This document shows positions 4,911 to 18,276 of a stretch of DNA of 64,000 nt, piece after piece. The stretch is taken from positions 1-64,000 of the forward strand of contig NZ_BJYT01000008.1 of NCBI RefSeq assembly GCF_007991655.1. The letters are read 5' to 3'. This DNA comes from Segetibacter aerophilus. GTDB lineage: Bacteria; Bacteroidota; Bacteroidia; Chitinophagales; Chitinophagaceae. The notes beneath the pieces were generated by a model that saw only the letters and a program-made list of their open reading frames with translations, had not been told where the DNA came from and did no database searches. Positions within the stretch are counted from its first letter, which is position 1. The number at the start of each line of letters is the position of its first letter. The position numbers and the translations under genes were made by a program.

Positions 4911-5062
4911 CGTTTTTTGTTTTTTTAATTAGGGAATACAAATTTCTCTAACGGCACACAAGCTACAAATTTTTTAAGAAAAACAAATTTCTCAACTAAA
5001 ACATCAAAAGCTTGCTAAGGCTTTCATCTTTCAATGAAGGTTTCCTTTAAGGAATAAAAAAA

Positions 5063-5084
5063 GCCATCCTATAAATTGGATGGC
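5063..5084 (-). terminator. Terminator of the outer-membrane protein gene
   Basis: The 7-bp stem GCCATCC/GGATGGC with an 8-nt loop is followed on the minus strand by a T-tract, 31 bp after the stop codon of the leftward gene. Confidence 0.7.
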
Positions 5085-5114
5085 CTTCAATCAAGTCCTA
5101 AATTAATTATTTTA

Positions 5115-10283: not shown

Positions 10284-11330
10284 TTAGGTAAGTACCATAT
10301 CTCGTTTACCCGCAGCAAAGTCTTGCACCCAAGTTACGAGTGATTGTACCCAAAGCGGATGGACATTTAGGCAAGGGATTACCATAAAACTTTCGCCACC
10401 CGCATGAAGAAAAGTTTCTTTCCCCGCCATTGCAATTTCCTCCAACGTTTCAAGGCAATCACTTACAAAAGCAGGGCAAAGAATCACAAGCTTTTTAACC
10501 CCTTCGCCCGGCAACTCCTTCAATCGTAGGGCTGTATAAGGTTTCAACCATTCCTCGCTTCCAAGCCGTGATTGAAAAGAGAAGCCGACTTTGCTAGAAG
10601 GAATGTTAAGCTCATTAACTAACATCTGAGTTGTAGTCCAACATTGGTGGCGGTAACATGTGGCATGGGCAGGTGAAGACACTTCACAACAATTCTGCAC
10701 CTTCATGCAGTGTTTACCAGTTGGATCTGCTTTTGTCATGTGTCGCTGAGGAAGGCCATGATAACTAAACAGCACCTGGTCATACTCCTGTTGTAAGTAT
10801 GGTTTAATACTTTCCGTTAAAGCAGAAATATAGTGGGGCTCGTTATAAAAAGGTTTTATAAACGATAACGAAAAAGAATATTTTTTCTTTTTATGCACCG
10901 ACTTGGCATGCTCCACAGCAGTTTCATAAGAAGACATCGCATAATGAGGATATAAAGGAATCGCAATTACTTCTTCGAGATCTGGTACTCTTGCAGCTAA
11001 TTTTTCGTAAGCCTCTTCCATCGTTGGGTGGCCGTATCGCATCGCAATCTCCACCGGCTCCTCAACATTTGGCTGGAGGGCTTGCTGCAATTGTTTTGTC
11101 AGAACGATCAAGGGTGAGCCTTCCTGAGTCCACACCGATTTGTACGCTTCCGCAGATTTAGGAGCGCGAAAAGGCGCAATAATACCTCCAACCAGCAATA
11201 ACCTAAATATGTAAGGATAGTCAATTACCCTTTCATCCATCAAAAACTCCATTAAATATTTTCGAACATCTTTAACCTCGGTAGAGTCAGGTGAACCAAG
11301 ATTCATTAAAATAATACCTCTTTTAGCCAT
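10284..11330 (-). CDS. hemH: Ferrochelatase
   Basis: HemH inserts ferrous iron into protoporphyrin IX, the last step of protoheme synthesis. The 348-residue protein shows the family opening GIILMNLGSPDS, the active-site His in SYHGLPQRH (His191) and the late acidic ETLEEIA segment. Cys208, 214, 215, 225 and 230 cluster within 23 residues after the active-site loop. Internal Cys clusters of this kind hold a [2Fe-2S] centre in some bacterial ferrochelatases, so this may be an iron-sulfur enzyme (inference). It is the first gene of a leftward group hemH-hemJ, divergent from hemA across a 1 kb spacer. Confidence 0.95.
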   Translation of the reverse strand: MAKRGIILMNLGSPDSTEVKDVRKYLMEFLMDERVIDYPYIFRLLLVGGIIAPFRAPKSAEAYKSVWTQEGSPLIVLTKQLQQALQPNVEEPVEIAMRYGHPTMEEAYEKLAARVPDLEEVIAIPLYPHYAMSSYETAVEHAKSVHKKKKYSFSLSFIKPFYNEPHYISALTESIKPYLQQEYDQVLFSYHGLPQRHMTKADPTGKHCMKVQNCCEVSSPAHATCYRHQCWTTTQMLVNELNIPSSKVGFSFQSRLGSEEWLKPYTALRLKELPGEGVKKLVILCPAFVSDCLETLEEIAMAGKETFLHAGGESFMVIPCLNVHPLWVQSLVTWVQDFAAGKRDMVLT

Positions 11331-11354: not shown

Positions 11355-11439
11355 AACCCCTCACATCAAGAAAAGTTCAAACGTAGTGTTAGGAGTAGAG
11401 ACTGGAAATAGAGAGAAATAACGACAGTTAGTGGGAAAT

Positions 11440-11584
11440 AAAAAAGGCACGGTATTCAACCGTGCCAAAATTTTAATTTGAAGTCCTTCTATGTTTCATA
11501 TTGCAATCGTAGAAGGTTTCATACAGTTAATCAATCGTAGAAGCAAGTATTGTTATCGTTAGAAGCAAATCACTACTGAATTGC
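11440..11584 (-). ncRNA. Candidate small RNA A, about 145 nt
   Basis: This leftward unit runs from a promoter-like element to an intrinsic terminator and has no usable reading frame. The terminator is an 8-bp perfect stem (GGCACGGT/ACCGTGCC, 11446-11466, 5-nt loop) followed on the minus strand by six T. Inside are three near-tandem copies of an approximately 12-nt motif (minus strand CTTCTACGATTG) at 11504-11515, 11532-11543 and, with an extra A, 11553-11565. Transcription is inferred from the layout only. Confidence 0.5.
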
Positions 11585-11589
11585 TGAAG

Positions 11590-11626
11590 CAAAGAAACTC
11601 AACTTTTTTATGCTAACAACCGTTAG
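11590..11626 (-). promoter_or_regulatory. Promoter/operator of candidate small RNA A
   Basis: On the minus strand a -33 TTG (11617-11619) is followed after 19 nt by TTTCTTTG (11590-11597), close to TAnnTTTG. The TTG lies in the loop of a palindrome CTAAC-nnnn-GTTAG (11613-11626). Confidence 0.45.
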
Positions 11627-11683
11627 TAACATTTTTAATTCTTTTTTAATTGCCTGAACAAGCGAGGATGGATGCTTTGAAAA

Positions 11684-11870
11684 TAAAAAAGGAGGCTTCC
11701 CTAATTTATAAGAAAAGCCTCCACAATAATAACTACAGCGTTAACCTAAATGGAAGTAAGACGCAAACTAAAATAAGACTAGAAAAAAAGCAAGAACAAT
11801 CGTAGAGGCCGGTATTATCAATTGGCAAATAAATCTTTAGATTTTCAATGACTGGCTAATCGTTAAAGGC
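11684..11870 (-). ncRNA. Candidate small RNA B, about 185 nt
   Basis: Leftward unit without a usable reading frame. It ends in an 8-bp stem (GGAGGCTT/AAGCCTCC, 11691-11722, 16-nt loop) and a run of T on the minus strand. It contains TAACGATTAG (11856-11865 complement) and CTACGATTG (11797-11805 complement), both related to the motifs of unit A. Confidence 0.5.
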
Positions 11871-11875
11871 GAAAA

Positions 11876-11914
11876 CAAAGAAACATCATTTTTATGTCAC
11901 TAACAAACGTTAGT
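11876..11914 (-). promoter_or_regulatory. Promoter/operator of candidate small RNA B
   Basis: The minus strand has TTG (11904-11906), 20 nt, then TTTCTTTG (11876-11883). The perfect palindrome ACTAAC-AAAC-GTTAGT (11899-11914) covers the -33 element. The spacer resembles that of unit A (CATAAAAA followed by TGA/TTGA). Confidence 0.5.
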
Positions 11915-11969
11915 AATTCTTTTTTAGAGAGTGGAATCTCATCAAAAAGCTTTTGAATTTGGAGTAAGT

Positions 11970-12074
11970 AAAAAAAAGCAGGGCATGATATAAATCACGC
12001 CCTGTTAACCCTTAATTTCTATTAGCAAAAACAGCAATCTAACGGCAAGTAAGCCCAAATGCTTGAACTACTTG
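11970..12074 (-). ncRNA. Candidate small RNA C, about 105 nt
   Basis: Third leftward unit. It ends in the stem CAGGGC/GCCCTG (11979-12004; the stem continues with one mismatch and TGA/TCA) and a run of seven T on the minus strand. It has only a weak version of the CGATTG motif (GTTAGATTG). Confidence 0.45.
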
Positions 12075-12080
12075 CTTTGC

Positions 12081-12119
12081 CAAAGTAATAACAAAAAATC
12101 TAAACTAACAAACGTTAGT
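12081..12119 (-). promoter_or_regulatory. Promoter/operator of candidate small RNA C
   Basis: The minus strand has TTG (12109-12111), 20 nt, then TTACTTTG (12081-12088). The palindrome ACTAAC-AAAC-GTTAGT (12104-12119) again covers -33. Here it is extended to a 15-bp perfect inverted repeat. Confidence 0.45.
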
Positions 12120-12128
12120 TTAGATTTT
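12095..12128. terminator. 15-bp AT-rich hairpin, possible bidirectional terminator
   Basis: The arms AAAATCTAAACTAAC and GTTAGTTTAGATTTT pair perfectly around an AAAC loop, with T runs leaving on both strands. It could end a fourth leftward unit starting near 12240 (that stretch also has TAACGATTAC on the minus strand). It overlaps the operator of unit C, so its function may be as DNA rather than RNA. Confidence 0.4.
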
Positions 12129-12270
12129 ATCTTAACTTTTTTGATAGTTTCTAGCACTTAAGATGATTCGTGCGATTGAAAGAGTAATCGAGATAACGAG
12201 AATAGAATGTTGTAATCGTTAAAACCCGGATAGGAGTCATGTTTTTTTATGACAACTACGTGACAGACAA

Positions 12271-12290
12271 ATTATGTCACTCCTTTACCT
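12271..12290 (+). repeat. Dispersed repeat, copy 3 (degenerate)
   Basis: ATGTCACTCCTTTACC matches the TG variant best in its GTCACTC core and lacks the full 3' CTTGTAC. It lies just upstream of the hemA promoter. Confidence 0.45.
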
Positions 12291-12327: not shown

Positions 12328-13578
12328 ATGGTAGCAGACAAGCAGCAAAATATTTCTGGATTTTTCATCGTTGGAATAAACTATAAAAAAACAGATGCTT
12401 CAGTTAGGGGACAATTTGCTATCAACAATATTCAATATGCTAATATTCTGTCTATAGCCCCCTCGTTTGGCCTTTCTGAGTTTTTTATTCTTTCTACCTG
12501 CAACCGAACTGAGATTTATGGGTTTGCTGACAACGCTTGTCAACTTGTAGAAGTTCTTTGTAGCCAGACAGAAGGAGACATTGAAATGTTTAAGAAGTTG
12601 TGTTATGTCAAACAAGGGTCTGAAGCTATCCAACATATCTTTGAAGTGGGAGCGGGACTAGAATCGCAAATATTAGGAGACTATGAAATCATAGGCCAAT
12701 TAAAGTTAGCCGTAAAGTTTTCAAAAGAAAGTGGTTTTATTGGCGCGTTCACTGAAAGATTGGTGAACAGTGTAATACAATCAACAAAGGTTATTAAAAA
12801 TAAGACTGCATTAAGCGGGGGAACGGTATCAGTGTCATTTGCAGCGGTCCAATACATTAAAAAGAATGTTTCTAAAATAGCCGATAAAAACATTTTGTTA
12901 TTGGGTATCGGCAAAATAGGAAGAAATACCTGCAAAAACCTCGTAGACTATCTTAATACAAAAAGGATCACTCTTATCAATCGCACCGAGGAAAAGGCTA
13001 GAGAATTGGCGAGTGAATTAGGTTTACAATCGGCCTCAATGGATGATCTTTCTTCATACGTTCAATCTTCAGATATTATACTGGTTGCCACCAACAGCAA
13101 CGAGCCTATTATTTTAAAATCTCATTTAGAAAATTTCGGAGATAAGCTTATCATAGACTTATCCATCCCTTATAATGTAGAGAAGGAAGCACAAGAACTA
13201 TCTAATGTTACACTTATTAACGTAGATCAGTTATCTAAACTTAAAGATGAAACGCTTCAAAAGCGTGTAGCAGAAATTCCTGCTGCTAAAGCAATTATAG
13301 CAGAGCACAAAGAAGAGTTTTTAGAATGGAGTCATATGCGCAAAAATGTACCATTCATAAAAGCAGTTAAGCAAAAGTTGCATGACATGCACAACTGCGA
13401 ATTATATTTATCTTCCTACTCTTCTTATACTTCCAATACCACTTCTCTCAATCCTGTAAATGTGCAGGCTATACAAAAGGTTATAAAAAATATGGCTGTA
13501 AAAATGCGCCAGCAACACCAGCCGGGATGTTCTTACATAGAAGCCATCAATGATTTTATAACTACCCATCGCAATTAG
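12328..13578 (+). CDS. hemA: Glutamyl-tRNA reductase
   Basis: HemA reduces the glutamyl group of Glu-tRNA to glutamate-1-semialdehyde with NADPH, the first committed step of C5-pathway heme synthesis. The 416-residue protein has the catalytic Cys58 in LSTCNRTEIYG, the HIFEVGAGLESQILGD substrate-domain motif, a Rossmann motif LLGIGKIG around residue 192 and a C-terminal dimerisation helix. It starts the rightward heme operon; hemC begins 2 bp after its stop. Confidence 0.96.
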   Translation: MVADKQQNISGFFIVGINYKKTDASVRGQFAINNIQYANILSIAPSFGLSEFFILSTCNRTEIYGFADNACQLVEVLCSQTEGDIEMFKKLCYVKQGSEAIQHIFEVGAGLESQILGDYEIIGQLKLAVKFSKESGFIGAFTERLVNSVIQSTKVIKNKTALSGGTVSVSFAAVQYIKKNVSKIADKNILLLGIGKIGRNTCKNLVDYLNTKRITLINRTEEKARELASELGLQSASMDDLSSYVQSSDIILVATNSNEPIILKSHLENFGDKLIIDLSIPYNVEKEAQELSNVTLINVDQLSKLKDETLQKRVAEIPAAKAIIAEHKEEFLEWSHMRKNVPFIKAVKQKLHDMHNCELYLSSYSSYTSNTTSLNPVNVQAIQKVIKNMAVKMRQQHQPGCSYIEAINDFITTHRN

Positions 13579-16510: not shown

Positions 16511-16882
16511 ATGTTCCTACAATTAGCTCATACTAAACTGAATGCTTATCAAGAAACAAGAAAGTTTACGCTGGAATGCTACAAAGTAACGAGGCTTCTT
16601 CCAGCAGATGAAAGGTTTGCAATGGTGCAGCAATTAAGAAGAGCTGCGCTGTCAGCTCATTTAAATTTAGCAGAAGGCGCCTCTCGGAAATCCATAGCTG
16701 AAAGAAAGAGATATTTTGAGATTTCAAGAGGTTCAGTAATAGAAGTAGACACCGCTGTTGGTATTGCGTTTGAACTAAAGTACCTGAAAATGGAAGATTT
16801 AGAAAGTATAGGAGAATTAATAGTAAATACTTTTAAGTTGCTAACTGGATTAATAAACCAAAGTAATAATACTGACAACTAA
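16511..16882 (+). CDS. Four-helix-bundle protein (23S rRNA IVP / S23 family)
   Basis: This 123-residue, fully helical protein has the family hallmarks: QLRRAALSAHLNLAEGASRKS with the conserved Arg-Arg-Ala and Asn-x-Ala-Glu-Gly, then the ERKRYFEISRGSVIEVDTAV helix. The family was first seen encoded in intervening sequences of 23S rRNA genes. In Bacteroidota stand-alone copies sit in intergenic gaps and their role is unknown. This copy is intact and lies between hemE and hemF. Its stop codon falls inside a TGACAACT-type simple repeat. Confidence 0.85.
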   Translation: MFLQLAHTKLNAYQETRKFTLECYKVTRLLPADERFAMVQQLRRAALSAHLNLAEGASRKSIAERKRYFEISRGSVIEVDTAVGIAFELKYLKMEDLESIGELIVNTFKLLTGLINQSNNTDN

Positions 16883-17844: not shown

Positions 17845-18276
17845 TTGGTGATTTTAGGAATTCCTATACATAAAACTGTGACCAAGTTTGAACTGCAAAA
17901 GGGGACAAAGAAATTTCATGTAGACGTCCTTAAGTTATGTACTTATTATCCTAAAAATGCAGCAGGATATGAAACAGCGAAACAACTTATTAGGGCGGCT
18001 GGTTCTGTAGGAGCAAATTACAGAGCTGCTTGCCGAGGAAAATCGAAGGCAGACTTTATATACAAAATTGAAGTTGTGTTAGAGGAGGCAGATAAGTCTT
18101 TGTACTGGCTTGAAATTTCAAAAGAGGCAGAACTATTACCGCTATCAGAATAACTAGATTATTTATTGAAAGAAGCAAACAAAATAGTATGCATTTTTAA
18201 TGCTGCTGATATAACTGCAAAGAGAAAAAGAGATGAACAAAATCAAAACGTCAGTAAATCTCCAAATCAGAAATAA
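17845..18276 (+). pseudogene. Four-helix-bundle protein broken by an in-frame stop
   Basis: The first part (17845-18153) reads a four-helix-bundle protein of the subtype with AAGSVGANYRAACRGKSKADF and EEADKSLYWLE. A TAA at 18151-18153 ends it after LLPLSE. The same frame then goes on for 40 codons (LDYLLKEANKIVCIFNAADI..., to the TAA at 18274-18276), which is the usual last helix of this subtype. One in-frame nonsense codon therefore truncates the protein. No ATG is available at the start; TTG (17845) or GTG (17848) would have to serve, 4-7 bp after hemF. It differs in subtype from the intact copy upstream, so it is not a recent duplicate. Confidence 0.8.

Follow-up and report, generated by a model that had tools for sequence, protein, structure and literature searches.

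The spacer between hemH and hemA of Segetibacter aerophilus contains three tandem minus-strand units, A, B and C. A and B probably specify small untranslated RNAs, controlled by a TetR operator, that act as multi-site sponges for a second small RNA, here called X; the role of C is uncertain. Positions refer to the 64,000-nucleotide stretch of DNA that was analysed (the window).

Sequence comparison establishes the units and their complementarity to X, the conservation of both, the distribution of X and the common operator. From these we infer a chain that runs from transcription of the RNAs, through binding of the palindromes by a TetR protein, to titration of X. The repressor would release the operator, which lies over the -33 region, on meeting an acyl- or aryl-CoA, a ligand suggested by the regulon and by relatives. 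A and B would then be transcribed, each offering two to three X-complementary sites, mostly bipartite or bulged. By binding X they would take it out of action, and any targets that X may regulate would be freed.

10284..11330, minus strand: hemH, ferrochelatase, a neighbouring gene (TIGR00109 above cut-off)
11436..11584, minus strand: RNA A, taken to start about 6 nt past the -7 box, with three predicted X-binding sites
11446..11466, minus strand: terminator of unit A (terminator scan)
11590..11597, minus strand: -7 box of unit A, TTTCTTTG
11612..11627, minus strand: operator of unit A, an imperfect palindrome (CTAAC AACC GTTAG core, 5-bp half sites) that overlaps the -33 region and is kept across units
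11681..11870, minus strand: RNA B, start assumed, with two strong and one weak predicted X site
11691..11722, minus strand: terminator of unit B (terminator scan)
11876..11883, minus strand: -7 box of unit B, TTTCTTTG
11899..11914, minus strand: operator of unit B, perfect palindrome ACTAACAAACGTTAGT
11969..12075, minus strand: RNA C, start assumed, with a predicted 5' hairpin and no significant X pairing
11979..12004, minus strand: terminator of unit C (terminator scan)
12081..12088, minus strand: -7 box of unit C, TTACTTTG
12104..12119, minus strand: operator of unit C, perfect palindrome ACTAACAAACGTTAGT
12328..13578, plus strand: hemA, glutamyl-tRNA reductase, a neighbouring gene (TIGR01035 above cut-off)

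Each unit has its own palindrome, promoter, body and terminator. The sequence-only reading had described three separate units of this kind, with a perfect palindrome in two and 5-bp half sites in one, and that description holds (B and C are the perfect pair). The general form of the palindrome is ACTAACnnnnGTTAGT, from which A departs. The perfect version occurs four times in the genome of 5.9 Mb, B and C accounting for two of these, compared with one occurrence of the reversed pattern. The distance from the end of the palindrome to the -7 box is 14, 15 and 15 nt in A, B and C, and 13 to 15 nt in all 13 units collected from the genus. Searched as an exact pattern in ten genomes, this palindrome and box geometry was found in 13 places (eight units and five elsewhere) versus seven for the reversed pattern; the loose spacing pattern is by itself only weakly specific. 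The -7 consensus of Bacteroidota is TAnnTTTG, as described in PMC7366714, and the promoters of A, B and C appear to be of the Bacteroidota type.

A scan of 3 kb gave six terminator-like sites, compared with 2.4 (sd 1.9) in shuffled sequence. Stems of 8, 8 and 6+3 pairs had been reported for GC-rich hairpins with T-tract; the terminators were recovered, while the stem lengths were counted here as 8, 12 and 11. All minus-strand frames in the spacer are of 35 aa or fewer, in agreement with the earlier view that the bodies have no sizeable reading frame. A small protein encoded in the bodies was considered and rejected: the ATG frame MKPSTIAI of A, the one frame whose conservation was judged, is by eye absent from R277 and R295, and the other frames are short. 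There are no tRNA genes in the window and no Rfam match at gathering, in agreement with the sequence-only reading, which saw no known RNA family here; at E ≤ 1 the best match in the spacer has E 0.018, below gathering, and nothing credible appears. A putative hemH promoter (11381-11347, minus strand, by eye) lies closer to the hemH start than the units do, so A to C do not look like a hemH leader. From sequence alone, then, the units have the promoter and terminator of stand-alone noncoding genes. Inside the bodies are repeated boxes (CTTCTACGATTG...TATGAAA); neither these nor the complementarity of A and B to a multicopy RNA had been remarked on in the sequence-only reading.

Comparative analysis shows that the units are conserved within the genus, where related spacers can be detected by DNA similarity. 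The gene hemA was found in eight of ten Segetibacter genomes, and six of these eight have one to three units beside it, which bears out the expectation that palindrome and terminator pairs should recur in related hemH-hemA spacers. Three units are present in the window's genome and in RYN_279, and RYN_277 has two plus a third (unit C, L052) that looks decayed by eye. RYN_294, S. koreensis and RYN_295 have a single unit at hemA. In RYN_295 a second unit, about 29 kb off, adjoins hemH; the two genes lie that far apart on one contig (L009, L036; G008:C90) with one unit each, as if an insertion or rearrangement had split the spacer. S. koreensis has a further unit adjoining serS, away from heme genes. 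No unit was found at hemA in two genomes (G001 and G004, hemA 65-69% identical), nor at 14 hemA loci of other Chitinophagaceae (best E 0.79; one of these loci, L048, covers just 147 nt upstream). A degenerate fourth unit of the window's genome, at C22:34321, has the palindrome and no clear -7 box.

Alignment of the 13 units shows 17 invariant columns in the operator-promoter block, and the proposal of an operator common to all three units is supported. The bodies and terminator sequences vary. The fixed promoter geometry, together with terminator stems that are maintained despite change, points to selection on the units. A separate motif, GTGAGTGACACAAC, recurs by eye in unrelated Segetibacter intergenic spots (L007, L008, L009, L038, L099, L227).

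RNA X was discovered through the boxes. The box variant GCCTTTAACGATTGCTTG, with up to three mismatches, occurs in 18 places in the window's genome, compared with three for the reversed control; searched genome-wide as CAATCGTAGA, the box gave 15 matches versus 16 for the reversed control and was uninformative. Five of the six best places are an element on the opposite strand, X, and the sixth is the degenerate unit at C22:34321. X reads AAGATTTTCATATGGCAAGCAATCGTTAGAGGC, slightly altered in some copies, and is followed directly by a terminator hairpin and T tract; the unit boxes are its reverse complement. Its conserved stretch of 33 nt, AAGAUUUUCAUAUGGCAAGCAAUCGUUAGAGGC, abuts the terminator and is present in five copies in the window's genome. 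None lies in the window itself, where the best of five weak matches (E 0.009) is a plain terminator at 5049-5114.

The core of X is found in all ten Segetibacter genomes, at 64 places with up to three mismatches (a few being chance matches or sponge sites read in reverse) compared with two for the reversed pattern. Thirty rows from a selection of loci, rather than all 64 places, were aligned, including one duplicate (L170 = L100); the C22 locus, a variant copy (L153:315) and a copy truncated where its contig stops (L171) were left out. In the consensus fold seven of 14 pairs are changed on both sides, all within the terminator stem, and the core is nearly invariant. With a covariance model at E ≤ 0.001, X was detected in 169 of 244 Chitinophagaceae genomes and in 74 of the 101 sampled genera of this large environmental family, with copy numbers from 1 to 11. 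Rfam 15 yielded no match at gathering for the ten X- or unit-bearing loci compared with it. X thus appears to be a widespread and apparently unlisted small-RNA family.

The following sites for X were predicted in A and B.

11541..11567, minus strand: A site 1, -21.3 kcal/mol
11510..11545, minus strand: A site 2, bipartite, -26.1 kcal/mol
11493..11517, minus strand: A site 3, mostly within a predicted hairpin loop, -21.2 kcal/mol
11838..11870, minus strand: B site 1, spanning nearly all of the 33-nt stretch with few mismatches, -36.0 kcal/mol
11813..11842, minus strand: weak B site, -18.1 kcal/mol
11774..11809, minus strand: B site 2, -29.5 kcal/mol

Pairing of X with the 13 bodies, calculated with RNAduplex, was far better than chance in 11 units, among them A and B of the window (z -4.0 to -8.1; none of 300 dinucleotide-shuffled bodies and none of 300 shuffled X sequences did as well). 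Both C units failed this test, since 47 and 25 of their 300 shuffled bodies paired at least as well, and C was rejected as a sponge for X. Sites of -17 kcal/mol or better number three in A, three in B and one in C, versus 0.3 in 30 shuffles. The degenerate unit at C22:34321 also pairs with X (z -6.7). So do L073 and L075, two more loci with sponge-like RNAs or leaders, where 0 of 300 shuffles were as good.

Because X was discovered through the box, pairing was retested with the search motif excluded from X. Ten of 27 sites had P ≤ 0.05 and eight had P above 0.2; the combined P of 1.4e-9, and that of 1.2e-4 for the five sites of the window alone, are too optimistic, since sites from related species cannot count as independent and adjacent stretches overlap.

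The X-paired positions are also well conserved. In A, compared across four species, 56 of 60 are invariant versus 21 of 39 in the rest of the body (Fisher 5.8e-6), and no other part of the unit is conserved as well (25 of 42 invariant in the promoter, 30 of 50 in the terminator). In B, across three species, 43 of 73 are invariant versus 21 of 67 in the rest of the body (9e-4); here the promoter (35 of 42) is better conserved than the paired positions, and the terminator stands at 12 of 50. In several sites a U of X faces a missing base and the middle of the duplex forms a loop; both features recur between species. Extended complementarity to the conserved part of X, seen in 11 of 13 units, is therefore kept in A over four species and in B over three. 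A sponge should show just such conserved pairing at more than one place in each RNA, and this argues for A and B as sponges.

The main rival reverses the direction of action. A and B would be the acting antisense RNAs, and their target, X, would be the 3' UTR of small lipoprotein mRNAs, which they would stabilise or destabilise. Among 58 X loci with 420 nt of upstream sequence, 26 have an ATG frame of at least 36 aa ending within 140 nt upstream, and in a manual count 22 of these sit 44-96 nt behind small MKK...C lipoprotein-like genes, which suggests that some copies of X may belong to mRNAs. However, 32 of the 58, including three of the five in the window's genome, have no such frame on the same strand, a test that longer upstream genes could escape. 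Repeated sites within one RNA, as in A and B, are a decoy-like feature. Furthermore, sites of the same kind stand in three of 11 acyl-CoA dehydrogenase leaders (see below), as would be expected of X targets or decoys. Action of A and B on lipoprotein mRNAs is on balance improbable.

The lipoprotein-like peptides encoded upstream of X (L097-L102, L145-L203) read MKKLLFVFVLGAFAAC... and are rich in S, T and D. In places the genes and X form arrays of units of about 400 bp. The one peptide that was tested had no match in Pfam.

The operator suggests a TetR protein as the regulator of the units. An orthologue of the TetR that is encoded beside a PaaE-like reductase at operator loci outside the genus (see below) occurs in all ten Segetibacter genomes, and five of them carry the palindrome upstream of this gene, 29-63 nt from its start (in one it differs by one base). 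In three of those five a PaaE-like gene is next to the palindrome-bearing TetR gene. In the window's genome the TetR gene (C27:34334) has no palindrome in front, and the regulator of A to C was therefore assigned by orthology. The TetR protein matches PF00440 and PF17932 above cut-off. Among the NCBIfam equivalogs compared, a list that contains no PaaR model, it scored 43.2 bits against the cut-off of 200 for FadR and 27.2 against 300 for PsrA, below both. Its matches among solved structures are TetR repressors, including KstR2 and FadR. Both of these are CoA-responsive.

Among the TetR loci (L224-L233), the promoter palindrome occurs in four genomes in which no unit was found (G001, G003, G004 and G007, hemA itself not being found in G003 and G007). 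One genome (G009) has both the TetR-promoter palindrome and a unit, and five others have units and no TetR palindrome. Rewiring of the regulon is a possible cause of this distribution.

Outside the genus the operator was sought with a sequence model of the operator-promoter block (R1) run on 195 genomes of the family; the model was built from the units, so its scores for them are circular. As R1 matches 190 of the 195 genomes at E ≤ 1, mostly as noise, inspection was limited to the 28 top loci outside the genus. Ten lie within 173 nt of the start of an acyl-CoA dehydrogenase gene and one more at 339 nt. Two are at starts of branched-chain aminotransferase genes, one is at that of an acyl-CoA carboxylase subunit and two are at TetR genes followed by a PaaE-like reductase; the remaining 12 have other neighbours. 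For each enzyme one example was compared with protein models. The aminotransferase scores above its cut-off and the carboxylase has the Pfam domain. The acyl-CoA dehydrogenase matches models of that type strongly, none at cut-off, and the PaaE-like reductase, a partial frame, scored 339 bits versus a PaaE cut-off of 421.

Some of these genes may themselves carry X sites. Leaders were compared with X in two sets, nine of the 28 loci (those whose promoters were caught by the search expression) and all 11 dehydrogenase loci (the one at 339 nt included). In three of the 11 dehydrogenase leaders (L070, L074 and L083) pairing with X surpasses all 300 shuffles, and in a fourth (L086) 299 of them. The other seven have no clear X site: L082 surpasses 285 shuffles, and six are at chance (106 to 246 of 300 shuffles as good). 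Neither TetR leader, in the first set, has a clear X site.

The sequence-only reading had seen in the three units ordinary small RNAs under a common repressor, with heme, iron or oxygen as a possible trigger; on such a view they might act on the heme genes. It is the position of the units, between hemH and hemA and beside hemA in six of eight genomes, that points this way, and position alone does so. The many other operator sites at catabolic genes and at TetR genes, and the unit of S. koreensis at serS, speak against it, and the bodies of A and B are best explained by complementarity to X. Control by heme, iron or oxygen was set aside, and small RNAs directed at heme genes are very unlikely. 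The switch of the units resembles that of genes for fatty- and aromatic-acid breakdown and not a heme switch; that they lie among heme genes may be incidental.

A protein rather than X might be titrated, as by a CsrB-like decoy, if the boxes were sites for an RNA-binding protein and their match to the reverse complement of X a coincidence. The boxes are indeed short and repeated, and one lies in a predicted hairpin loop, but the complementarity extends over up to 33 nt, including part outside the box, and X, an RNA family with a terminator, is conserved in its own right, which leaves little probability to such a coincidence. It is hardly credible that the units are decayed inverted copies of X behind a TetR-regulated promoter, with complementarity a functionless relic: the X-pairing unit at C22:34321, with no clear -7 box, and the decayed-looking unit C of RYN_277 would fit such decay, but the X-paired positions are the best conserved of all of unit A and exceed the rest of the body in B, and promoter geometry is fixed and terminator stems maintained though they change.

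Sponging of X by A and B might form part of a circuit common to the Chitinophagaceae. X, released in part from the 3' UTRs of lipoprotein mRNAs, would be checked by tandem decoys that work as target mimics, the conserved bulge and central loop preventing cutting of the duplex. The decoys would belong to a TetR regulon that senses CoA thioesters, and the same kind of site would act in some acyl-CoA dehydrogenase leaders. We offer this wider scheme tentatively and consider it possible rather than probable.

Sponges of multicopy small RNAs are already known from Vibrio and Caulobacter, and multicopy small RNAs from Bacteroides. QrrX is an RNA sponge of the Qrr1-4 small RNAs of Vibrio cholerae, described as a dedicated noncoding RNA that pairs with the conserved seed of a multicopy family and has its own transcription factor (PMC9732341). 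The proposed sponges of Segetibacter share these features, but differ in phylum and sequence, in having up to three tandem genes with at least two X sites in each of A and B, and in their TetR-type operator. CrfA of Caulobacter crescentus, as reported, inactivates a family of four sibling small RNAs, SisA-D, and is linked to carbon supply (PMC12559287). As described, it resembles A and B in these respects, whereas the units described here are tandem and probably under catabolic TetR control.

FopS small RNAs of Bacteroides are paralogous and, like X, form a multicopy family in Bacteroidota; they are described as mostly intergenic, with one member derived from a 3' UTR (PMC11697453). Their 5' seeds block susC starts and the protein RbpB is their antagonist, and the accessible text of that report does not mention a sponge. 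Unlike these 5' seeds, the conserved stretch of X adjoins the terminator. X shares multiple copies with FopS, judged on DNA sequence only. In a 400-kb sample of 284 genes, X-core pairing showed no enrichment at start codons: at -16 or better it was found at 11 starts versus 14 internal positions.

PaaR (TTHA0973) of Thermus is a TetR repressor of phenylacetate genes (PMC6651687). Its half sites, given as CNAACG / CGTTNG, resemble CTAAC / GTTAG of the present operator, and paa genes lie nearby in both cases. The inner positions differ, however, and the operator of Chitinophagaceae is also found at acyl-CoA dehydrogenase and RNA genes. In the available text of the open-access literature no report of a small-RNA sponge in Bacteroidetes was found, sponges being mentioned there in general terms alone, and none on small RNAs of Chitinophaga (by title) or Chitinophagaceae; nor did work on RNA sponges of multicopy small-RNA families there describe the present system.

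A and B, if they act as proposed, would provide an RNA sponge in Bacteroidota and would connect X with the regulation of acyl-CoA catabolism. The scheme predicts clearly which inducer and which boxes should matter, and X is open to probing in cultured relatives such as Segetibacter koreensis.

Two features of the heme locus lie outside the units. ATGAC-like repeats (GTCATG...TATGAC...GTGACA) occupy 12236-12275 on the plus strand, about 25-65 nt before the likely -7 box of hemA (TACCTTTG). By eye this run of repeats is present in the Segetibacter hemA loci that were read, including both of those without units, and its appearance suggests a site for an activator of hemA. Farther along, two small proteins are encoded on the plus strand among the heme genes (16511-16882 and 17845-18153), which we take to be of the four-helix-bundle / 23S intervening-sequence kind.
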